A stretch of 36,441 nucleotides of DNA from assembly GCA_015655195.1 (NCBI GenBank), contig JAATFM010000306.1, forward strand, positions 1 through 36,441, read 5' to 3'. A program made the translations under genes and the position numbers. A model generated the notes under the pieces. That model was not told where the DNA came from. It saw only the letters and a list, made by a program, of their open reading frames with translations, and did not search any database. This DNA comes from Terriglobales bacterium. GTDB taxonomy: Bacteria; Acidobacteriota; Terriglobia; Terriglobales; Acidobacteriaceae. Shown one piece after another: positions 17,045-29,339 of this stretch (position 1 is its first letter; each line of letters begins with the position of its first letter).

Positions 17045-18487
17045 TTACTGCATTCCGATCTCGGAGAGAATCTTCGGGTTCGGTTCGTCCACGGCGAGCA
17101 GGTTGTGGCAGGTTGAGCAGTCGTTCGGAATGCTGTCGCCGGCTTTGGCCTTGTTTACGTGATCGCCGTCGTGGCAGCGGAAGCAGCCCGGATAGTTCAT
17201 GTGGCCGATGTTGTTGGGGTGTGTGCCCCAGGTGACCTTCATAAATGGGAAGACATTCTGGCTGTAGACGACGGCGAGCTGCTGACCGGCGGTTTTGACC
17301 AGCGCAGACTGCGAGGCGAGAACCTCCGGGTGGCTCGAACGGTAGAAGGCTTCGAGCTGGGCGGGAATCTTCTGGCGGGCCTCGTCTTCGCTCGCGTAGC
17401 TGGCCTTGAGCAGCTCCATGCCTTCCTTGTGAATCCAGGGAATCTGCGGGCTGACGGCGCCCGCGTACATGGCGTTATTCAGAGCTTCTTCCGGTGTGAC
17501 GAAGGCGTGGGCAGCGCGGTTGTGGCAGTCGATGCAGTCCATGGTGCGGCGCTCGCCCTGCGGGACGCCGCTGCCGGCTGCGGAGGTGGCGTAAACGGTC
17601 TCCTTGCCGTCGGGGGTGCGGCGCATGACCCAGGGAATGGTGGAGCGTTCCTTGTCCGTGGCGACATATTCGATGTGGCCGAGGTGAACGCCGTGGATGC
17701 CGGTGAGATTGCCGAGCGTGTCGCGGCCGCCGATGTGCAGGAGCACGATGGACTGCGTCCTGGAGTTGTGCTCGTCGTCGCCGTAGCTGGTCTTCACGAT
17801 GAATTTGTCGCCGGCGAACTTGGCGGGCGTGTGGCAGCTCTCGCAGATGTCACGGGCCGGGCGCAGGCTCTCGACGGGCGACCCTATGGGTGTTGGGTAG
17901 TGGTGGAAGGCGACTTCAATGAGCTGTTTGGTGCCGTTGGCCTTGGCGCGGATATAGGAGTTGATACCGCTGCCCACATGGCACTCCGTGCAGGGCACAT
18001 GAGAGTGCGGGCCGATCTTGTAGGCGGTGTACTCGGGATACATGACATGGCAGGCCGCGCCGCAGAAATTGGGGGAATCCATGTAAGCCACGCCACGAAA
18101 GCTGGCCGTGCCGACGAGGATGAAGTTCACGAAGGTGGCGGCAAGGACGAATTCGATGCCGCGGCGGAAGATGGGATCAGCGAGGTTGATCTGCGGGTAC
18201 GCCTCGGGTAACTGGCCCTTTATGCGCAGGCGGCGGCGGCGCAGCCACATTCCAACCGGAATGAGCAGCAGGCCGAAGACGAAGACGCCGGGGAGGAGCA
18301 GATCGACGAGAATGCCGAGGTAGGGGTTCGTCGAGCCGCCACGGCCGAGGATGTCGACAATCCAGAAGCCGACGAGTGTGAGGCCGGCGGCGGTGGTGAG
18401 TGCGCCGCCGATGAGGCTGAGCGGATTGTTGCCGAAGAAAAGCGCCGGGCGAACCCAGCCCTCGCGAAAATTCTTGAAAGACGGCAC
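17045..18487 (-). CDS. Inner-membrane NapC/NirT-type multihaem cytochrome c (ImcH-like)
   Basis: The protein probably oxidises membrane quinol and passes electrons to periplasmic cytochromes, or the reverse. Its 480 residues start with three predicted membrane segments (about 22-47, 56-82, 110-131). Six haem sites then face the periplasm: CGAACH at 142-147 with a three-residue spacer (CX3CH), and CTECH 166, CESCH 215, CIDCH 318, CFRCH 435, CSTCH 457. The first site with VMYPEY and the second are the NapC/NirT pair. The multi-TM start and long C-terminal haem domain recall ImcH of Geobacter rather than the shorter CymA. The start is GTG 18487, 4 nt after GGAGG. The gene follows the small cytochromes, separated by a hairpin and a MITE-like repeat, so it may have its own promoter. 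Confidence 0.85.
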   Translation of the reverse strand: MPSFKNFREGWVRPALFFGNNPLSLIGGALTTAAGLTLVGFWIVDILGRGGSTNPYLGILVDLLLPGVFVFGLLLIPVGMWLRRRRLRIKGQLPEAYPQINLADPIFRRGIEFVLAATFVNFILVGTASFRGVAYMDSPNFCGAACHVMYPEYTAYKIGPHSHVPCTECHVGSGINSYIRAKANGTKQLIEVAFHHYPTPIGSPVESLRPARDICESCHTPAKFAGDKFIVKTSYGDDEHNSRTQSIVLLHIGGRDTLGNLTGIHGVHLGHIEYVATDKERSTIPWVMRRTPDGKETVYATSAAGSGVPQGERRTMDCIDCHNRAAHAFVTPEEALNNAMYAGAVSPQIPWIHKEGMELLKASYASEDEARQKIPAQLEAFYRSSHPEVLASQSALVKTAGQQLAVVYSQNVFPFMKVTWGTHPNNIGHMNYPGCFRCHDGDHVNKAKAGDSIPNDCSTCHNLLAVDEPNPKILSEIGMQ

Positions 18488-18496
18488 ATGGCCTCC

Positions 18497-18655
18497 AGTG
18501 GTGAGCGCTATTATGGCGCGGATGCAAAAACAGCAATTTGAAGCCTAAAACGCACCTCAGGGCCTAAAGGCCCAACTCATTTGGCTTGGACTTGTTGCCG
18601 GGGATAAATTCCCGGCCTACCCATTGTGCATCAGCGCCATAATGGTAGTGGTGAG
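18497..18655 (-). mobile_element. MITE-like element C (copy 2) with terminal inverted repeats
   Basis: Inverted ends ATTATGGCGCGGATGCA (18510-18526) and its near-complement at 18627-18643 match at 16 of 17 positions. AGTGGTGAG occurs as a direct repeat outside both ends (18497-18505 and 18647-18655), separated from them by 4 and 3 nt. Inside are two hairpins shared with copy 1 at 6288-6405, in reverse orientation. No transposase frame fits in about 134 bp, so any movement would need an enzyme in trans. Confidence 0.6.
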
Positions 18656-18660
18656 AGCGA

Positions 18661-18684
18661 AAGGCCCGCTCGCAGGCGGGCCTT
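18661..18684 (-). terminator. Hairpin after the second small cytochrome c gene
   Basis: AAGGCCCGC and GCGGGCCTT form a 9-bp stem with a 6-base loop, 25 nt after the stop of the 102-residue cytochrome. On the minus strand the tail is TTTCGC, a weak U-run. It may end, or reduce, transcription before the NapC-like gene. Confidence 0.6.
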
Positions 18685-18708
18685 CATTATTGCTTGCAAT
18701 GAAACAAT

Positions 18709-19017
18709 TTACTTCAAGGTACGGAAATAGGCGACGGCTTCCTTGATCTGCGCGTCTGTGAGCTTGCCGGCAAAGGGCTTCATCTTGTTCTTGCCGTTCT
18801 TGACGGCGGTGAACTGCTCTTCTGCGGAAGTTTTATATTCGGCGGCCGGCTTGATGTCCATCATCTTTGCCATGCCGGGGCTGGGTGTGCCAGTGGCGCC
18901 GTGGCAGCTTTGACAGTTGGCCTTGTACGTCGCTCCGCCCGCTTGAGCAAAGCCCATAGCGCCGCCCACGGTAACCACCGCGGTCAGCACCACTAGAGAT
19001 CGAATTGCTTTTGTCAT
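18709..19017 (-). CDS. Small periplasmic monohaem cytochrome c (second copy)
   Basis: The 102-residue precursor has a signal peptide cut near AQA|GG (residue 26) and one haem site, CQSCH (35-39). The probable Met ligand is in NKMKPF (Met79), followed by the terminal helix LTDAQIKEAVAYFRTLK. This is the class I, c6/c551-like layout with His-Met ligation. It would shuttle electrons in the periplasm, most plausibly between the NapC-like protein and the decahaem cytochrome. ATG 19017 has AAGGAG 8 nt upstream. It is clearly a paralogue of the next gene upstream, sharing the CHGATG and LTDAQIK...YFRT blocks. The 157-nt gap between the two shows nothing recognisable. Confidence 0.93.
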   Translation of the reverse strand: MTKAIRSLVVLTAVVTVGGAMGFAQAGGATYKANCQSCHGATGTPSPGMAKMMDIKPAAEYKTSAEEQFTAVKNGKNKMKPFAGKLTDAQIKEAVAYFRTLK

Positions 19018-19174
19018 TGCGACACTCCTTAGGATTTCCCGGCCTGTACTGAATCAGCCCCCGGCCGGGGATTCTGCTCTTCGGCGCCGCATCTGCGACC
19101 GTCCGGTGAGGGCTGGCAAGATTCAACCATCTCTCGTCGATCTGCGCAATACCCGTCGATCCGCGGTAGCCGTC

Positions 19175-19495
19175 TTACTTCACGAACGTGCGGAAATACT
19201 CTACCGCATCCTTGATCTGCGCATCGGTAAGTTTATCCTTAAAAGGCTGCATCTTACCCATGCCGTTTTTGGTGGCCGCAATCATCTCGGCCTCGTTCAA
19301 TTTTTTCACATCAGGATCGGTCGCCGGCTTTACCTTCATTGCTTTGCCCGCTCCGCTGTCCGCCATGCCGGTTGCGCCGTGGCACATCTGACACTTTGTT
19401 TTATAAATGCTCGCCCCGCCACTTTGTGCAAAAGCAGCCGTCATTGTCATAGCCGCCATCATAGCGAGAGTCGTAACTCCAGTCCTGAACTTCAT
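19175..19495 (-). CDS. Small periplasmic monohaem cytochrome c (first copy)
   Basis: The 106-residue precursor has a signal peptide ending near AFAQ (residue 24), haem site CQMCH (35-39) and a probable Met ligand in GKMQPF (Met82). It shares with its downstream paralogue CHGATG, the K-rich middle and LTDAQIKDAVEYFRTF. It belongs to class I cytochromes c and should be a soluble periplasmic carrier. A Shine-Dalgarno (AAAGGGG) precedes ATG 19495. The gene follows the outer-membrane barrel gene after 73 nt that include a 13-bp hairpin. Tandem duplication with divergence suggests the two copies may have different potentials or partners, but that cannot be read from sequence. Confidence 0.93.
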   Translation of the reverse strand: MKFRTGVTTLAMMAAMTMTAAFAQSGGASIYKTKCQMCHGATGMADSGAGKAMKVKPATDPDVKKLNEAEMIAATKNGMGKMQPFKDKLTDAQIKDAVEYFRTFVK

Positions 19496-19526
19496 CAGCG
19501 ATCCCCTTTCAGCTTACCGTTTCGTT

Positions 19527-19563
19527 GGGTCTCCACTCCTATTTCGTTTTGGAGTGGAGACCC
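19527..19563 (-). promoter_or_regulatory. Intercistronic hairpin between barrel and cytochrome c genes
   Basis: GGGTCTCCACTCC (19527-19539) and GGAGTGGAGACCC (19551-19563) form a perfect 13-bp stem with an 11-nt loop. No U-run follows on the minus strand. It could be a processing or stabilising hairpin that sets the relative levels of the barrel and cytochrome messages. Confidence 0.55.
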
Positions 19564-19568
19564 GGCCG

Positions 19569-22229
19569 TCAGAACTCGTAGTGCAAACCAAGCGTCACGT
19601 TGCTGGCGTGGAAGTTCCGTGGCGCGGTGGAGCCGTACGCTGGCCCGCTCATCGCGGTATTCGGCACGCTGCTGCAAGGCACCACGGGCAGGGGGCCGGG
19701 GTCGTTTACCGCAGGAGAGGTCGCGATGTTGCAATACTGCGCACCCGATTGGCCGCCCTCGCCGTAGCCGAAGTAGTCATACTCGCCCTTGAAGATGAGA
19801 TCCTTGTGAACCGCATAAGCGACATTCACAAAGGGCGACTGATAAGTGGAGACCAGCGAACCGTTGACATCGGTCGCATCGGTGAAGAACCGGCTGCCAT
19901 TAGCTGAGCTGATGCGGTAGCCTATGCTGGAATGAAGCTTCGCGACCGGCGAGAGCGCCAGAGCCGCCGAAGCGTACTGCGTCGGCGCATCTTCAAAATC
20001 CTTGGCAGGTCCGATGAGAACGGTCTCCGAGCTGTGCCCGGACGCGACGGGAGTGCAGAGGTTCCCGCTTTGGGTTGAGGCGGAAGGCGCGACTGCGCCA
20101 CCCGCAACAAAGCTGGCCTGGCTCTGGAAGCAGATGTTGGTCGCCGTGTAGACGTCGCTGTAGGCGTAAGTGATGTCGAGTCCGTAGTGCTCATTCGGCA
20201 TCAGGTCGGCGCTCAGGCTCACAACCCGGCTGTGGTCGACGTGGCCGAGCGGGCCGGTGCCGGACGGGGTGCCAGTGTTGTTGGTGTTGTTGTGCCGCTC
20301 CAGGTCGTTGTAGGCACCCGAGATCGTCGCCCAGCTCTTCGGACGGAACATGGTGTGCACGCGATAGTGCTGAAGCTCGCGAGGAGCGACCGGCGTGAAG
20401 ACGTTGTCGGCATACAGAACCTCAACCGAGCCATTGATCTCCCAGTTGTTGGTCGGCCGCGTCGCTACGGCGAGGATAGCGCCGTTATCGTTGATCGGGT
20501 ACGTGGTCACACCCACCGCCGGAGCGGTGGCGGTCGCAGCGGTAAAGGAGTTGCCCAGGATTTCGGCGATGGTGTGCGCCTGGTGGCGATACGTGAGCGA
20601 GAGCGTGGTGCGATCCGTGACATCCCAGGACGCGGTGATGTTGTTGGTAATGAACTTCTGGCCGAAGTAGTTGGACAGCGTCCCACCGATCGCGGGAGTC
20701 CCTTCAGGCACCGAGGTGGTCGGCTTGCAGCCGGCCGGCGAGGTTGTGGTCGAGTTTATCGTCGTGCAGCTCGTCACGTTCGTATTGTTGATGGTGTCGC
20801 TGCCGACAGTCGTGGGCACCGTCATAGTGGTCCCGCTCGTTAGCCCGGCGACTCCCGGCTGGTGCACATTCGAGAAGTCGATCTGCTCGGCCAGACTGAA
20901 CTTCTTCGTCACCTGCCAGACGATGCCGTAATCGGCTGCGATAGTTTCCCGCTTGGCGTTCGCATAACCGGCATAGGAGATCGAGCGATTCGCTGCCTGC
21001 AGGCCCTGGAAGTCCTCGTAATAATGCGGCATGTTCATGTTTGCGTTGGTGTAGCGGACATTGCCGTTCATCGTCACGTTCTTAATGCTTGAGCTTTGCA
21101 GGCGGAGGATCTCGGAGGGAAAGATCTCGCGCGTCGGCTGCGAGCGGAAGTAGCTGCTGATCACGTAGCACGCCGGATCGATGATCGGAGCGCCGCCGCT
21201 GGGATTCGCAGAAAGAATCGTGGACGATTGGGTGATGCTGCCGCTGCAGACGCCACTGGGGGTAAACTTTCCCGTGCTGCCACTGTAGCCGTAGGCATAA
21301 GAATTCTGGTAACTGAACAACGGAGCGACCTTGGTCCCGTCCGCCTCCTGGAAGATGTAGGCGCTGGGAGCCATGGTGAAATAGGAGTCGCCCTTGTAGT
21401 GATCAATCTGCTCTTCGTAGGTCAGCCGCGTTCCCTGGATGGGCTTCCATTCGATCGCACCCGTCCAGTCGTCCGTGCTGTTGCGCTGGTACTCCTGGAG
21501 CAGAACTTCTTGTCCGGCCACCGAATTACCACTTGGAGTCAGGCTCGGCCCCTGGAAGATGTTCTGCGAGTAGCCAAAGCGGTAGGTCACCTTCGAGAGC
21601 GGCAGCAGGGTCAGGCTGGTGTCCGTCATGCGGCGCACGGTGTTGAAAAGGAACGGCGACTGATTGACCTGCGACCATGCGTATGGCGTCGCGGAGCCGC
21701 TGACGGGAATCGTCTGCCCGCCGGGGATGCCTGGGTTGCCCAGCAAGTCATAGTCGAAATACTGCCGGTTGCGGCGGAATACTCCCGAAAAGTCATAGAG
21801 CTTGCCCTTCGAGAAGTCCAGCTTGGAGAAGCTGTTCGGATCGCCGCCAAACCCGGTGCTGAAAGCCCTCAGATTATCGAGAATTCCGCCCTTGGTGCCT
21901 GGCAGGGCGCGCAGCTCAAAGGTCTCGCCCTGCACGCGCGGCCCGGACTGCAAATTGACCAGCGTGCTGTACATCGCCGAACTGCCTACGGTGTTGGTCA
22001 TGCGCCCGCCCAGGTCCACGGTTTCGTGGACCGAATATCCCTTCGGAACGGACATTGCCGCGCCCGGCGCCGGAAGCGGCGAGCCTGGTATCTGCACCTG
22101 GACCTGGGCCATGGCGGCGCTCGTAGTCATTCCTAAAATCGCGACTACAAATCCCCCGGCAATGTGCTGAATCATCGCTCTTGAGGACTGTTGTTTAGGC
22201 AGTCGTGAAAGCCAGCCTGTCTGCGTCAT
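19569..22229 (-). CDS. Outer-membrane beta-barrel protein, MtrB/PioB-like porin
   Basis: The 886-residue precursor has a signal peptide (about 19-42, GGFVVAILGMTTSAAMAQ). A long run of alternating strands follows with many Tyr, Thr and Asn, ending LGLHYEF; a terminal Phe is the usual outer-membrane barrel signal. Repeated strand-turn units such as TLSLTYRHQAHT, HYGLDITYAYSDVY and LHSSIGYRIS fit a large porin. In MtrAB/PioAB systems such a barrel sheathes a decahaem cytochrome to carry electrons across the outer membrane. The decahaem gene directly upstream makes this the best call. There is no N-terminal CXXC as in Shewanella MtrB, and the sequence is highly divergent, so another kind of barrel is possible. 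ATG 22229 has GAGG 7 nt upstream. Confidence 0.75.
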   Translation of the reverse strand: MTQTGWLSRLPKQQSSRAMIQHIAGGFVVAILGMTTSAAMAQVQVQIPGSPLPAPGAAMSVPKGYSVHETVDLGGRMTNTVGSSAMYSTLVNLQSGPRVQGETFELRALPGTKGGILDNLRAFSTGFGGDPNSFSKLDFSKGKLYDFSGVFRRNRQYFDYDLLGNPGIPGGQTIPVSGSATPYAWSQVNQSPFLFNTVRRMTDTSLTLLPLSKVTYRFGYSQNIFQGPSLTPSGNSVAGQEVLLQEYQRNSTDDWTGAIEWKPIQGTRLTYEEQIDHYKGDSYFTMAPSAYIFQEADGTKVAPLFSYQNSYAYGYSGSTGKFTPSGVCSGSITQSSTILSANPSGGAPIIDPACYVISSYFRSQPTREIFPSEILRLQSSSIKNVTMNGNVRYTNANMNMPHYYEDFQGLQAANRSISYAGYANAKRETIAADYGIVWQVTKKFSLAEQIDFSNVHQPGVAGLTSGTTMTVPTTVGSDTINNTNVTSCTTINSTTTSPAGCKPTTSVPEGTPAIGGTLSNYFGQKFITNNITASWDVTDRTTLSLTYRHQAHTIAEILGNSFTAATATAPAVGVTTYPINDNGAILAVATRPTNNWEINGSVEVLYADNVFTPVAPRELQHYRVHTMFRPKSWATISGAYNDLERHNNTNNTGTPSGTGPLGHVDHSRVVSLSADLMPNEHYGLDITYAYSDVYTATNICFQSQASFVAGGAVAPSASTQSGNLCTPVASGHSSETVLIGPAKDFEDAPTQYASAALALSPVAKLHSSIGYRISSANGSRFFTDATDVNGSLVSTYQSPFVNVAYAVHKDLIFKGEYDYFGYGEGGQSGAQYCNIATSPAVNDPGPLPVVPCSSVPNTAMSGPAYGSTAPRNFHASNVTLGLHYEF

Positions 22230-22278
22230 AATAAAGCCTCACTTGTAAAAACAGTTCCTAAATCTGCGTGTACACTCG

Positions 22279-22327
22279 CCATGGAATCTGTGCCGGGCCG
22301 TCCGGCATCGCAGCGCAGATTCCATGG
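22279..22327 (-). promoter_or_regulatory. Hairpin between decahaem and barrel genes
   Basis: CCATGGAATCTG (22279-22290) and CAGATTCCATGG (22316-22327) pair perfectly over 12 bp, with TGCCGG/CCGGCA pairing inside. It occupies nearly half of the 115-nt gap after the decahaem stop. It has no U-run, so partial attenuation or RNA stabilisation is more likely than full termination. Confidence 0.55.
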
Positions 22328-22344
22328 CTCCAGCCTCGGGACTT

Positions 22345-23244
22345 CTACCTGAGGAACGCCGCATTCATGTTCGAGCCATGAATGTAGGTGTGGCAGCTCG
22401 TGCACGGTACGCTATCCGACGATCCCGCGTTCATCCCATGAACCGTGTCCTGGGCTACCTGGCTGTGGCACTGGTTGCACAACACGTTGATGTTCGGCAT
22501 GTTCAGCAGCCGGGCATTCTGTGAGCCGTGCGGAGTGTGGCATCCTGTGCATCCCTCCGCCTTCACCGCGGCGTGCTCGAACACAAATGGCCCGCGCGTC
22601 TCGGTGTGGCACTTGGTGCAGATCGCGTTTTGATCGGCCGTGGTCTTCAGGTTCTTTTCCCCGAAGGTGCCGTGAACGTCATGGCAGTCGTTGCACGTTA
22701 CAAGGCCCTCGTTCACCTTGTGGTGGAACGGCATGTCGAACGATGGCTTCACGTCGGTGTGGCACTGGTAGCAAAGCTGGGGCTGTGACGCCTTCAGCAG
22801 ATGCTCCGGCTCCTTGCTGGCGTGAACGCTGTGGCAGCTTGTGCAGCCCACGTTGGCCTTGGCGTGCGGCGAGCGGTCAAAGTTCGGATGCGCTCCCGCA
22901 TGGCAGCCCAGGCAGGTCTTGTCCACTTCCTTGCTCGAAGCCTTGGCGGGATCGAAGATCTTCGTTACATCGCCTCCGCCGTCGACGTGCGCTTTGCCCG
23001 GCCCGTGGCAGCCTTCGCAGGTCACGCCGCTTTTGCCGTGCATCTCCGCGATCTTGGTATGCGGATTGTTCGCGAACCCCTTCGCCACCTCGTCATGGCA
23101 GGTCGCGCAGGTCTCCGAGCCAACATATTCGGAGGCTGCAGGAGGAGGAGCGGGAGACTGCGGTTTACTGCTTTGCGCAGGAGCTGTTCCGCTGTAAGCT
23201 ATGATTGCAGAAACCAGCGCTGCCATCTTCAGGAAGCGACCCAT
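22345..23244 (-). CDS. Periplasmic decahaem cytochrome c, MtrA/DmsE family
   Basis: The 299-residue precursor has a signal peptide ending APAQ (residue 24), a Pro/Ser-rich linker and ten CXXCH haem sites starting at residues 46, 76, 111, 134, 158, 184, 209, 232, 256 and 281. The number, even spacing and overall size match MtrA, PioA and DmsE. Those insert into an MtrB-type barrel and move electrons between periplasm and cell surface. Pairs such as CHSVHASKEP and CHTPHGSQNA, with an extra His a few residues on, are typical of bis-His multihaem proteins. ATG 23244 follows GAGG by 8 nt; the frame is open further up but without a signal. It appears to be the first gene of the electron-transfer operon. 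Confidence 0.92.
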   Translation of the reverse strand: MGRFLKMAALVSAIIAYSGTAPAQSSKPQSPAPPPAASEYVGSETCATCHDEVAKGFANNPHTKIAEMHGKSGVTCEGCHGPGKAHVDGGGDVTKIFDPAKASSKEVDKTCLGCHAGAHPNFDRSPHAKANVGCTSCHSVHASKEPEHLLKASQPQLCYQCHTDVKPSFDMPFHHKVNEGLVTCNDCHDVHGTFGEKNLKTTADQNAICTKCHTETRGPFVFEHAAVKAEGCTGCHTPHGSQNARLLNMPNINVLCNQCHSQVAQDTVHGMNAGSSDSVPCTSCHTYIHGSNMNAAFLR

Positions 23245-23314: not shown

Positions 23315-23528
23315 TCACTTGCGTCACCAGGAGAGTAGCTCAACTGTAGCCGGATTTGTTGTGACTGTCATCACGGGGCGGTGACAGGAAAGGTTCGTTC
23401 GATCCCATCCCGGCTGCATAATTACCTTTTGCGGTCAGTTTGGGATAGCTTCCCTGCAAGCGGATCCACTACCAAAAGCGCACCAGGTTTCCCGCCTGTG
23501 GCCGAAGGAAAGCTGCTCTAATCGTTGC

Positions 23529-25635: not shown

Positions 25636-25796
25636 GATGTAGGCCGGCGTAGCCGCCGTAGAGCCTGAGAGTTACGAAAGTCCATGTTCAGGCTGTAGCC
25701 CTACGTCATGAAAATATCCTCAGCAGCCAACGTGATTCAACCTCGCTTTAACCTTCATTCATCTGGCATTCGCAGTAGCTGCGTAGGTTGGCGGCT

Positions 25797-28700
25797 ATGA
25801 AAACTATATTCAGAAGTTATTTTTCTGTCTTTCTGGCCGCGCTCCTGAGCGCGGCTTTGAGTCTCCCGGCCAGAGCACAATATGACAATGGAAGCCTGGT
25901 GGGGACGGTAAAGGATTCAGCCGGCGCGGCGGTTCCAGGCGTCGCGGTAACGGCCACCAACACTGCCACCGGCATTTCCGCTCGAACCGTGACAAACGGC
26001 TCGGGCGACTACGAGTTTCCTGACCTGAAGGCCGGAAGCTACTCGGTGGAAGCCTCGACGAACGGCTTTTCGCCGGCCGCGGCGCGGAATATTAACGTCT
26101 CTGTGGCCAGCCGCGTCCGCATCGACCTGACGCTGAAGGTCGGTTCTGCCGAAACCACCGTCGAAGTTCAGGGCGTGGAAGTTGCGCCCGAAACCGAGAC
26201 CAGCGAGCGCGGGCAGACGATTTCCAACTACCAGACGGCGAGCCTGCCGCTGGTAAGCCGCAACTACTCCGACCTGCTGGCCCTCGTCACCGGCTCGCGC
26301 CAAGCGCCCACGGCGGCCACGACGACATCTGTGACAAGCCTCGTCCGCGCCGGCTCCTACAACGTGAACGGCCAGCGCTCGATGTTCAACAACTACCTGC
26401 TCGACGGCCTCGACAACAACGCCTACGGCGAAAGCAACCAGGGCTTCGACAACCAGATCATCCAGCCGCCGCCGGACTCCATCGCGCAGTTCCAGGTGGT
26501 GACAAACAACGAAAGCGCCGAGTACGGCCGCTCGTCCGGTGCAACCATCAACGTGGCTTCGCGCTCGGGAACGAACAAGTTCCACGCTACGCTCTACGAG
26601 TTTCTCCGCAACACGGACCTGAACGCCTTCGGCTATATCAAGGCCGTCAGCGGCACGCATGAGTTTCCCAAGCCGGGATTCAACCGCAACCAGTTCGGCG
26701 CCAACTTCAGCGGGCCGGCAATCAAGAACAAGCTCTTCTGGTTCCTCGATTACGAGGGCTTCCGCCAGACGCTCACGCCGACGGTGGTGCTGACCGTTCC
26801 GACGCAAAATGAGATCGGTGGCATTCTGGCCGTGGACGTACAGGACCCGTATTCGCCGGGAACGTATTACAAGGCCGGCACTTCGATCCTGAACTCGCCC
26901 GACGCCAGCCCCGTTGCCAAGCAGATTCTCGCGCTCTACAGCCAGCTTCCCTCGCAGTGCCAGATCGTGCCGGGCGCGCCGGGCATCAATGCCTCGACCG
27001 GCATTGCCACCAACGACTGCGCCACTAACGCGCCGTTTACCGACAACGCCGACAAAGGCGACCTGCGCCTCGACTACCAGCAGAACGAGCGCAACTCGTG
27101 GTTCGTGCGCATCAGCGATCGCAAGGAGACCGGCATCAACTTCAAGACGCTGCCCGGCCAGCTCGATGGCCAGACCAACGGCCGCATCAAAATTCTCGAT
27201 CGGCAGGTCGTGCTGGGCTATACCGGCCTTTCCGGCGCAAACAAAGTGCTCGATGCGCGCATCGGCCTTTCCGGCACGCAGGCCGGCAAGTACACGCTCT
27301 CCATCGGAGAGAATTCGATCACCTTCCCTGGCCTGCCAACGGACCCAACCGTCGCCGGCGGCCTGCCCTCCATTGGAGTTTCGGGCGGCTTCAGCGGCTT
27401 TGGCCGCCAGAGCACCAACCCGCAGTGGCAGAACCCCTCGCTGCTGGACCCCAAGGTGAACTTCTCCTGGGTCAAGGGCAGTCACTCGTTCCGGTTCGGC
27501 TACGAGTACGAGCATGTCTGGATGGAGGTGCAGGACTCGAACCCGCTCTTCGGCTCCTTCAGCTTCGGCAAGGGGTACAGTGTCTGCCCCAGCGTGACGG
27601 TGGCTGGCGTGGCGCAGCCGGCAAGCCCCAACTGCCAGACGACATCGCCCACCGCCGATACCTACTGGGCCGACTTCCTCTTCGGCGCCTCCAACAACTA
27701 CGCGCTGGCAACCTACTTCAAGGCGCATCTGCTCACCAGCATGGACAATGCCTACGCACAGGATGACTGGAAGGTATCGCCGACGCTGACGCTGAACCTG
27801 GGCCTGCGCTGGGAGTACGGAGCGCCCTATTCGGAGGTGCACAACAACCTCTCGAACTTCATTCCCGGCACCGTCTCCATGCAAACGCTCACGCCGGGCT
27901 ACACGCAGACGCAGTTCATCTCGCCCTATCATGGTGGCGGCGTTTACGGAAAGACGCTCATGAATCCAGACCTGAACGACTTCGCGCCCCGCATTGGCTT
28001 CGCCTGGCAGTTCCTGCCGAACACCGTCATGCGCGGTGGTTTCGGCACCAGCTACGTGCATTACACGCGCGCCGGCTCGGGCGACATCCTTGCCATCAAC
28101 GCGCCTAATGCGCTTTTCGTCTCCGTGACGCAGCCCGGCACGGCCACCGCATCCGGCTACCGCACCATGGACGCGGGATTCCCCAACGATCTGGCCACAA
28201 CCTTCTCGCCGGGCACGGACAACATCACCTATGTCCCAAAGAACACCGCGGACAGCTACGTGGAAAACTACTACATCGCTTTCCAACGCCAACTCGCCAA
28301 GAACATCCTCCTCGACGTGGCCTACGTCGGCAACCACGGCCTCAAGCTGCAGGGCTTTTTCAACGCTAATCAGGGCAATCCCTCGCTCGGCGTCGCCAAC
28401 CCGACGAACCAGCTTGCCGGCGCGGGCTTCGTGCGGCCGTATCCCACCTGGGGCGGCAACGTTGGCTCGCAGTGGACCTATGGCGACATCACCGAGGCCG
28501 GCAATGTCTTCTGGTCGAACTTCAATGCGCTGCAGGTGCGCTACGAACAACGTTTCGTAGCCGGCCTCACGCTGCTGAACTCCTTCACCTGGGGGCACGC
28601 ACTCGACAACGCCTCGGCTTCGCTCGAAGGCAACACGCCAAGTCCGCAGGATGCCAACAACCTGGCCGCCGACCTCGGCCAGAGCGATTACAACCTGCCC

Positions 28701-29339
28701 GTAGCCAATATCACGAGCCTCGTCTATGACCTGCCCGTGGGCCACGGACGCCACTATCTCAGCAGCGCCAATCCCTTAGTGGACGCGGTGCTCGGCGGGT
28801 GGCAGATAAGCGCCGTCAACACCATGCAATCCGGCACTCCGTTCAACATCGGCTACACGCCCAACTCAACCCAGGCCGTCAGCCCGCAGATCTCGGCAAC
28901 GTATCGCGGAGCCAACGAATACCGCCCCAACCAGGTCGCCGGCCAACCGATCGTTACCTGCAACTCCGGCCACTCGTGCCTCAAACAGGTGGCGTCCAAC
29001 GGCACTGTGCAGTACGTCAACCTCGCTGCCTTCTCGCTACCTTCCATTAAGGACGCGAGCGGCAACCTGCTGAGTCCCTTCGGCAACACCGCCCGCAACC
29101 CGGGCCGCACGCCCGCCTACTACGAAACCGACCTCGACCTCAACAAGCGCTTCCGCGCCGGAGATCGCTTCGGCGTGGAATTCCGCGCCGAGCTCTATAA
29201 CCTCTTCAACCACACCAACCTCTATCTGCCCGGCAGCGGCCTGAGCGGCACGCAGGGCTCTGCTCCCACCGGCGGCGGCACCGTCTCCGGAACTTTCGAG
29301 CCGCGCATCGTGCAGTTCGGCCTGAAAGTGACGTATTAA
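25797..29339 (+). CDS. Oar-like TonB-dependent receptor with carboxypeptidase-regulatory-like domain
   Basis: This 1180-residue outer-membrane protein has a signal peptide ending ARAQ (about 26) and an Ig-like CarboxypepD_reg domain at about 30-110 (GSLVGTVKDSAGAAVPGV, then GSGDYEFPDLKAGSYSVEA). A plug-like region follows (YNVNGQRSMFNNYLLDGLDN, QFQVVTNNESAEYGRSSGA). The rest is a 22-strand-type barrel with GLRWEYGAPYSE and NIGYTP segments, ending FGLKVTY. Such proteins are greatly expanded in Acidobacteriota and are thought to import large nutrients such as oligosaccharides. No TonB box was recognised. ATG 25797 is preferred over TTG 25788, although the Shine-Dalgarno is weak. A clear terminator follows. 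No partner genes indicate the substrate. Confidence 0.93.
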   Translation: MKTIFRSYFSVFLAALLSAALSLPARAQYDNGSLVGTVKDSAGAAVPGVAVTATNTATGISARTVTNGSGDYEFPDLKAGSYSVEASTNGFSPAAARNINVSVASRVRIDLTLKVGSAETTVEVQGVEVAPETETSERGQTISNYQTASLPLVSRNYSDLLALVTGSRQAPTAATTTSVTSLVRAGSYNVNGQRSMFNNYLLDGLDNNAYGESNQGFDNQIIQPPPDSIAQFQVVTNNESAEYGRSSGATINVASRSGTNKFHATLYEFLRNTDLNAFGYIKAVSGTHEFPKPGFNRNQFGANFSGPAIKNKLFWFLDYEGFRQTLTPTVVLTVPTQNEIGGILAVDVQDPYSPGTYYKAGTSILNSPDASPVAKQILALYSQLPSQCQIVPGAPGINASTGIATNDCATNAPFTDNADKGDLRLDYQQNERNSWFVRISDRKETGINFKTLPGQLDGQTNGRIKILDRQVVLGYTGLSGANKVLDARIGLSGTQAGKYTLSIGENSITFPGLPTDPTVAGGLPSIGVSGGFSGFGRQSTNPQWQNPSLLDPKVNFSWVKGSHSFRFGYEYEHVWMEVQDSNPLFGSFSFGKGYSVCPSVTVAGVAQPASPNCQTTSPTADTYWADFLFGASNNYALATYFKAHLLTSMDNAYAQDDWKVSPTLTLNLGLRWEYGAPYSEVHNNLSNFIPGTVSMQTLTPGYTQTQFISPYHGGGVYGKTLMNPDLNDFAPRIGFAWQFLPNTVMRGGFGTSYVHYTRAGSGDILAINAPNALFVSVTQPGTATASGYRTMDAGFPNDLATTFSPGTDNITYVPKNTADSYVENYYIAFQRQLAKNILLDVAYVGNHGLKLQGFFNANQGNPSLGVANPTNQLAGAGFVRPYPTWGGNVGSQWTYGDITEAGNVFWSNFNALQVRYEQRFVAGLTLLNSFTWGHALDNASASLEGNTPSPQDANNLAADLGQSDYNLPVANITSLVYDLPVGHGRHYLSSANPLVDAVLGGWQISAVNTMQSGTPFNIGYTPNSTQAVSPQISATYRGANEYRPNQVAGQPIVTCNSGHSCLKQVASNGTVQYVNLAAFSLPSIKDASGNLLSPFGNTARNPGRTPAYYETDLDLNKRFRAGDRFGVEFRAELYNLFNHTNLYLPGSGLSGTQGSAPTGGGTVSGTFEPRIVQFGLKVTY

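Follow-up and report, generated by a model that had tools for sequence, protein, structure and literature searches.

The described systems closest to the locus analysed here are MtrAB of the Shewanella MtrCAB system (PDB 6r2q), the mtoABD-cymA cluster of Sideroxydans (PMC10654088), the ImcH cytochrome of Geobacter (PMC6295460) and the GSU2203/GSU2204 decahaem-barrel pair, also of Geobacter (sources cited by PMC number are represented throughout by partial texts). The locus consists of five minus-strand genes in a 36,441-nucleotide stretch of DNA (hereafter, the window) from a Terriglobales bacterium of the family Acidobacteriaceae (contig JAATFM010000306.1, assembly GCA_015655195.1), whose genome (G000, 4.76 Mb) is 96% complete. 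We consider it fairly probable that the five genes make up an electron path from quinol through the outer membrane that is induced at low oxygen and discharges onto Fe(III) or humic acceptors. The features concerned are the following:

23361..23374, minus strand: CRP/FNR-type palindrome GTGATGACAGTCAC, exact match, 5' of the decahaem gene (predicted site)
22345..23244, minus strand: decahaem c-type cytochrome of the MtrA/DmsE family, 299 amino acids (TIGR03508, MtrA 6r2q_A, ten CXXCH)
19569..22229, minus strand: MtrB-like outer-membrane barrel, 886 amino acids (predicted fold; no family model tried matches)
19175..19495, minus strand: monohaem class I-type cytochrome c, 106 amino acids (PF13442, 53.4 bits, cut-off 27; one CXXCH)
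18709..19017, minus strand: monohaem class I-type cytochrome c, 102 amino acids (PF13442, 55.5 bits, cut-off 27; one CXXCH)
17045..18487, minus strand: ImcH-type inner-membrane cytochrome, 480 amino acids, three membrane helices (PF03264, CX3CH and five CX2CH)

A check of the open reading frames (ORFs) of the window found the five genes where a previous sequence-only reading of this DNA had placed them, and the observation is confirmed by the haem motifs, by the TIGR03508 and MtrA matches and by a gene order that is kept in relatives. Transcription runs from the decahaem gene through the barrel, the 106-amino-acid monohaem and the 102-amino-acid monohaem genes to the ImcH-type gene. A single transcript is plausible from the layout because the gaps between the five genes span only 73 to 221 bp. 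None of the further open frames of the window carries two or more CXXCH motifs.

The decahaem protein scores 264.2 bits (cut-off 192.2) against TIGR03508, the DmsE family model of MtrA/DmsE decahaem cytochromes, and ten CXXCH motifs were counted in it. It aligns to residues 74-327 of 332 in 6r2q_A (E value 1e-36), a chain that we take to be MtrA and to which the PDB file gives another name. The alignment covers nearly all of MtrA and, as in MtrAB, the decahaem and barrel genes are adjacent. The length of 299 amino acids is counted from an ATG; the longest ORF opens with a TTG at 23343. Likeness to the Geobacter pair GSU2203/GSU2204 is also detected: the decahaem protein reaches 227 bits against NF041028, under the cut-off of 325, and related barrels match NF041027 weakly (4 of the 10 scanned, 20.6-27.8 bits, cut-off 350), whereas NF041027 does not match the window barrel at an E value of 1e-3.

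When structures were compared, the predicted barrel, with about 26 strands, gave a better superposition with MtrB than with other barrels of the outer membrane, and MtrB was its clear best match, ahead of substrate porins and TonB receptors. Profile comparison also detects a relationship between the barrel family and MtrB; the family profile was made from 10 of 12 loci (L224 and L230 have no printed barrel ORF), and alignment A2 was made without L131. The window barrel differs from MtrB in length (886 amino acids against 695 in the 6r2q_B sequence), in the lack of a match to the MtrB/PioB hidden Markov model (HMM) and in conserved Cys pairs within long loops (C328/C354, C700/C725 and C833/C852). 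The MtrB/PioB likeness that the sequence-only reading had proposed to check by HMM search is thus upheld by fold and profile comparison and not by the HMM.

The 102-amino-acid monohaem protein is cytochrome c6-like in the PDB, where none of its 36 matches is named MtoD; the search was made with this one of the two small cytochromes. The 480-amino-acid protein scores 36.5 bits against PF03264 (cut-off 24.1) and matches NrfH in the PDB (2j7a_C, E value 8.5e-8), with the NrfH model matched under its cut-off. Its hydropathy peaks at 23-48, 55-83 and 110-131, and an AlphaFold2 model of moderate confidence (pLDDT, the predicted local distance difference test, 69) has helices at 22-46, 55-90 and 105-136. 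A CX3CH motif at 142 is followed by five CX2CH. ImcH is described as having three N-terminal helices and an adjacent CX3CH with 5-9 CX2CH (PMC6295460), and both traits are found in the window protein. Its likeness to Geobacter ImcH, where the CX2CH motifs beyond the helices and CX3CH number six and not five, is by motif description (PMC6295460). Proteins of the ImcH type have so far been implicated only in quinol oxidation (PMC6295460). Decahaem features, barrel fold and profile, and ImcH features together support the earlier proposal that this acidobacterial genome combines an MtrAB/PioAB-like module with an ImcH-like one.

The operon shares with mtoABD-cymA a decahaem cytochrome, a porin, a small cytochrome and a NapC-family inner-membrane cytochrome (PMC10654088). 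It differs in having an ImcH-type protein, with three helices and six haem motifs, instead of a tetrahaem CymA, and in the opposite direction that we infer for it. Unlike MtrCAB, the locus has no MtrC that we could find, and ImcH and monohaem carriers replace CymA.

Conservation was examined in named loci, the best 80 of 103 confirmed loci; as they come from related genomes they are not independent, and counts overstate independent events. The decahaem gene lies 5' of the barrel gene at all 74 named loci that extend 1.2 kb or more upstream. Among the 59 with at least 5 kb downstream, ImcH is present at 49 (downstream on the same strand in 48, upstream in one, L114) and a monohaem gene at 52. 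Each of the 54 ImcH-like ORFs of the named loci has a single CX3CH, and five CX2CH are found in 52 of them. Cultured carriers with ImcH are Terracidiphilus gabretensis S55 (L139) and Silvibacterium bohemicum S15; Bryocella elongata has two loci, one of them with ImcH, and Granulicella paludicola and G. rosea have the decahaem-barrel pair without an adjoining ImcH. When 100 genomes of the family were drawn, ImcH was found in 52, the barrel in 48 and both in 39, counting ImcH homologues down to 37% identity (one is split in two pieces, of 45 and 36%). ImcH occurred without the barrel in 13 and the barrel without ImcH in 9. The two genes are at most 10 kb apart in 25 of the 39 genomes with both, and apart or on different contigs in the other 14. 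In another genome of the family (G131:C18:40672-49977), about 5.6 kb separate an ImcH homologue from a barrel whose match to the MtrB/PioB model is under the cut-off.

Parts of this system have been noticed before. Acidobacterial MtrA homologues were proposed as markers of Fe reduction in 2013 (PMC3669403), mtrA/mtrB homologues were reported in 2018 in T. gabretensis S55, S. bohemicum S15 and others (PMC5900883), and a survey of mtrCAB lists five hits in Acidobacteriia (PMC8805035). A 2018 survey of ImcH reported no mtrAB or mtoAB adjoining imcH (PMC6295460), whereas an MtrAB-like pair adjoins ImcH here; we think that the discrepancy is due to an unrecognised barrel and to the genomes then available. 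In the peatland metagenome-assembled genome (MAG) SbA5, known genes of metal reduction were reported to be missing, and Fe(III) respiration was left open (PMC6018796). Its contig (L163) holds the decahaem, the barrel, two monohaems, ImcH, the palindrome and an FNR-like gene; the operon was likely overlooked there as the standard MtrB model misses the barrel. Among the matches listed in the partial texts of open-licence PMC literature, no description of the full combination was recognised. The sequence-only reading is qualified in that the pair itself was already known from related strains (PMC5900883).

The palindrome GTGATGACAGTCAC, a predicted CRP/FNR-type site, sits 117-130 bp 5' of the decahaem ATG. 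GTGA-N6-TCAC occurs in a 450-bp stretch at the decahaem start (from 400 bp before to 50 bp past the start of the longest ORF, which is not the true start) at 60 of 74 named loci, against 0.03 expected per stretch from a background of 75 sites in 1,128,640 bases, the remainder of the named loci. Of the 80 loci, three without a decahaem on the piece and three at an edge were left out of this count; the regulator count has 71. The site is more than a copied flank because distance and core vary among loci. The operon of the cultured S. bohemicum S15 has the palindrome. A divergent CRP/FNR-family gene is found within 1.5 kb at 41 of 71 loci, with a CX2CX8C motif in 40 of these; the only one scanned (L098) has the Pfam domains HTH_Crp_2 and cNMP_binding. 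The named loci contain 51 CRP/FNR-family proteins, adjacent or not, with RETVTR in 48 and CX2CX8C in 45. GTGA is recognised by a reading helix of the R-E-x-x-x-R type, such as that of E. coli CRP, and cysteines near the N terminus point to an FNR-like Fe-S sensor. Regulation of the operon through a CRP/FNR-type palindrome, as predicted from sequence, would be new here.

A search of G000 with GTGATNNNNNTCAC listed 50 matches at 48 distinct sites, whereas the reversed pattern gave 4. Many of the 48 lie within ORFs and are probably chance occurrences; besides that of the operon, 13 palindrome-bearing promoter regions were named. Palindromes are found near adhE, phosphoketolase, hoxE and a NuoL/hydrogenase-4-type membrane subunit, near frd/sdhC cytochrome b, class I fumarase and an FNR-like gene, at rex-hydG-hydF-hydE, and at a radical SAM gene (TIGR04053) that lies opposite a gene for a universal stress protein. 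The predicted regulon looks like an oxygen/redox switch covering fermentation plus respiratory genes, so that the operon probably functions at low oxygen. A 144-amino-acid tetrahaem cytochrome ORF elsewhere in G000 (L191:3919-4353, contig C311) also has a CRP-type palindrome, about 30 bp upstream.

The mechanism that we propose is as follows. As oxygen falls, an FNR-like, cysteine-bearing regulator of the CRP family would bind the palindrome at 23361-23374 and activate the operon. The ImcH-type protein would oxidise quinol, as expected from its family, and the two small cytochromes, probably of high potential, would shuttle electrons through the periplasm. The decahaem wire, presumably lodged inside the MtrB-like barrel (family and fold are computed, the complex is supposed), would carry them to the surface. 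The window has no third multihaem frame that could encode an MtrC/OmcA surface cytochrome, and because no MtrC partner was found the last haem would pass its electrons to Fe(III) or humics directly, or via a protein that escaped detection. The high redox potential of these acceptors in acid soil would suit a chain of ImcH and class I cytochromes.

Export is, in our judgement, clearly favoured over import because of the regulon, the ImcH type, the lack of a RuBisCO match in the 96% complete G000 (the control was positive in 5 of 14 genomes) and the Fe(III) reduction observed in Acidobacterium capsulatum and Acidicapsa under oxygen limitation (PMC8790237), two organisms likened by physiology. 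Export under oxygen limitation is further favoured by the conserved site, the FNR-like neighbours in relatives and the occurrence of the site at fermentation and hydrogenase genes. The earlier statement that direction cannot be told from sequence was, on these grounds, too pessimistic.

Several observations weigh against export at low oxygen through such a wire. Porin-cytochrome modules of other bacteria run either way. The barrel is about 11% identical to MtrB, its Foldseek superposition on MtrB is looser (template modelling scores 0.49/0.66, root-mean-square deviation 8.7), and the structure models are single chains from which haems were left out. The window barrel has no match at an E value of 1e-3 to the MtrB/PioB model TIGR03509 (cut-off 240 bits), and a genome-wide search of G000 with this model is silent, as it is in control genomes; the model does function in the phylum, where 24 of 297 genomes exceed the cut-off. 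Nor was MtrC/OmcA found in G000, where the best TIGR03507 match has 24 bits (cut-off 209) and 0 of 14 control genomes pass. On the side of regulation, the palindrome is missing from the stretch at 14 of 74 loci, that of the cultured T. gabretensis S55 (L139) included, and a divergent FNR-like gene is absent at 30 of 71. The window itself has a LysR gene as divergent neighbour instead of the FNR-like gene of relatives, and the closest FNR-like protein of G000, 33% identical, is encoded elsewhere, on contig C60; it carries both RETVTR and CX2CX8C, and palindromes surround its gene. Palindromes are also found 5' of coxB, citrate synthase and icd, so that the regulon is not purely anaerobic. Lastly, a comparison of 24 genomes concluded, in its available text, that related strains with mtr homologues do not use Fe(III) pathways like those of Shewanella or Geobacter, their operons being incomplete (PMC5900883).

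An explanation that we regard as unlikely, though it survives best among the alternatives, is that the same conduit runs inward, oxidising Fe(II) or another outside donor while the monohaem cytochromes feed the quinone pool or an oxidase. Gene content does parallel mtoA-mtoB-mtoD-cymA of Sideroxydans (PMC10654088), neither the window frames nor the genome-wide TIGR03507 search yielded an MtrC, and the oxidase gene coxB has the same palindrome. Such a function is at odds with a genome that is 96% complete and gave no RuBisCO match, and with a palindrome common to fermentation and hydrogenase genes. MtoAB and PioAB are thought to oxidise outside Fe(II); the partner here is of the ImcH type, tied so far only to quinol oxidation (PMC6295460), and not of the CymA type.

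Among curated models the decahaem matches that of the DmsE family best, which admits another explanation: a DmsEF-like conduit might feed an extracellular reductase of dimethyl sulfoxide, iodate or a similar solute, and not minerals. This seems very improbable, as no molybdenum reductase was found among the 16 window proteins scanned (smaller ORFs lay outside the scan) or recognised by eye, without a family scan, among the ORFs of nine relatives. Slightly more improbable still is the absence of any transmembrane wire, with the decahaem as a periplasmic electron store and the barrel as an ordinary porin or substrate channel: the decahaem-barrel association does rest on prediction, but the clear best structural match is MtrB and not a substrate porin or TonB receptor, and the two genes adjoin at 74 of 74 loci.

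The periplasmic input of the pair looks exchangeable among loci, judging from gene content. Downstream of the pair and on its strand, a bog MAG (L131:6912-17439) encodes the small subunit of a hydrogenase, a protein with seven haems, an iron-sulfur protein, an NrfD-type protein and the large subunit of a nickel hydrogenase; this [NiFe] hydrogenase cluster has no ImcH, and the barrel reference of the locus contained stops, possibly through an assembly error. Eight of the named loci, of which five bear the label Acidobacterium sp., have relatives of a cytochrome with 13 haems and a b561-type domain; the scan for this domain covered L116.

Other observations concern variants of this kind. Hydrogenase-2-like large subunits also lie near the decahaem-barrel pair in L146, L148 and L150. 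Between barrel and ImcH, L116:11087-15015 and L123:10986-15959 encode a 13-haem/b561-type fusion and an 11-haem protein, besides carrying a separate gene of the cytochrome b type. In G000 itself, an 11-haem cytochrome with a b561-type domain lies beside rex, hydG, hydF, hydE and an [FeFe] hydrogenase-like gene (L178:1-8581, contig C62), and may be a second multihaem quinone-linked protein of this genome.

Family scans of the window proteins place a cellulase, an AIR-synthase-type protein, a peptidase M23, LysR and a YeiH-family protein around the operon, and these genes look unrelated to it. The divergent LysR gene adjoins the YeiH-family membrane protein (PF03601; 23529-25635), and a tie of the two to the operon is improbable. 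A TonB-type barrel of 1183 amino acids with a carboxypeptidase-regulatory domain (PF25183, PF13620) is encoded at 25788-29339.

Acid and peat soils are rich in Acidobacteria, and when oxygen is limiting members of this group reduce Fe(III), without a known pathway in the available text of that literature (PMC8790237). The presence of the operon in the cultured T. gabretensis S55 and S. bohemicum S15, together with the peat metatranscriptomes of SbA5 (PMC6018796), makes the question directly testable. A tentative and rather doubtful extension is that the Acidobacteriaceae share an overlooked acid-soil respiration, with a distinct MtrB clade, whose barrel has disulfide-stapled surface loops and lets the decahaem discharge without MtrC, an FNR-like oxygen switch and exchangeable periplasmic inputs. 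Were this true, the input would be ImcH, drawing on quinol, at most loci; clusters of the Acidobacterium type would have a fusion of a 13-haem protein and cytochrome b in addition, and at other loci a hydrogenase-2-like enzyme, accompanied by a seven-haem protein of its own, would possibly pass electrons from H2 straight outside.
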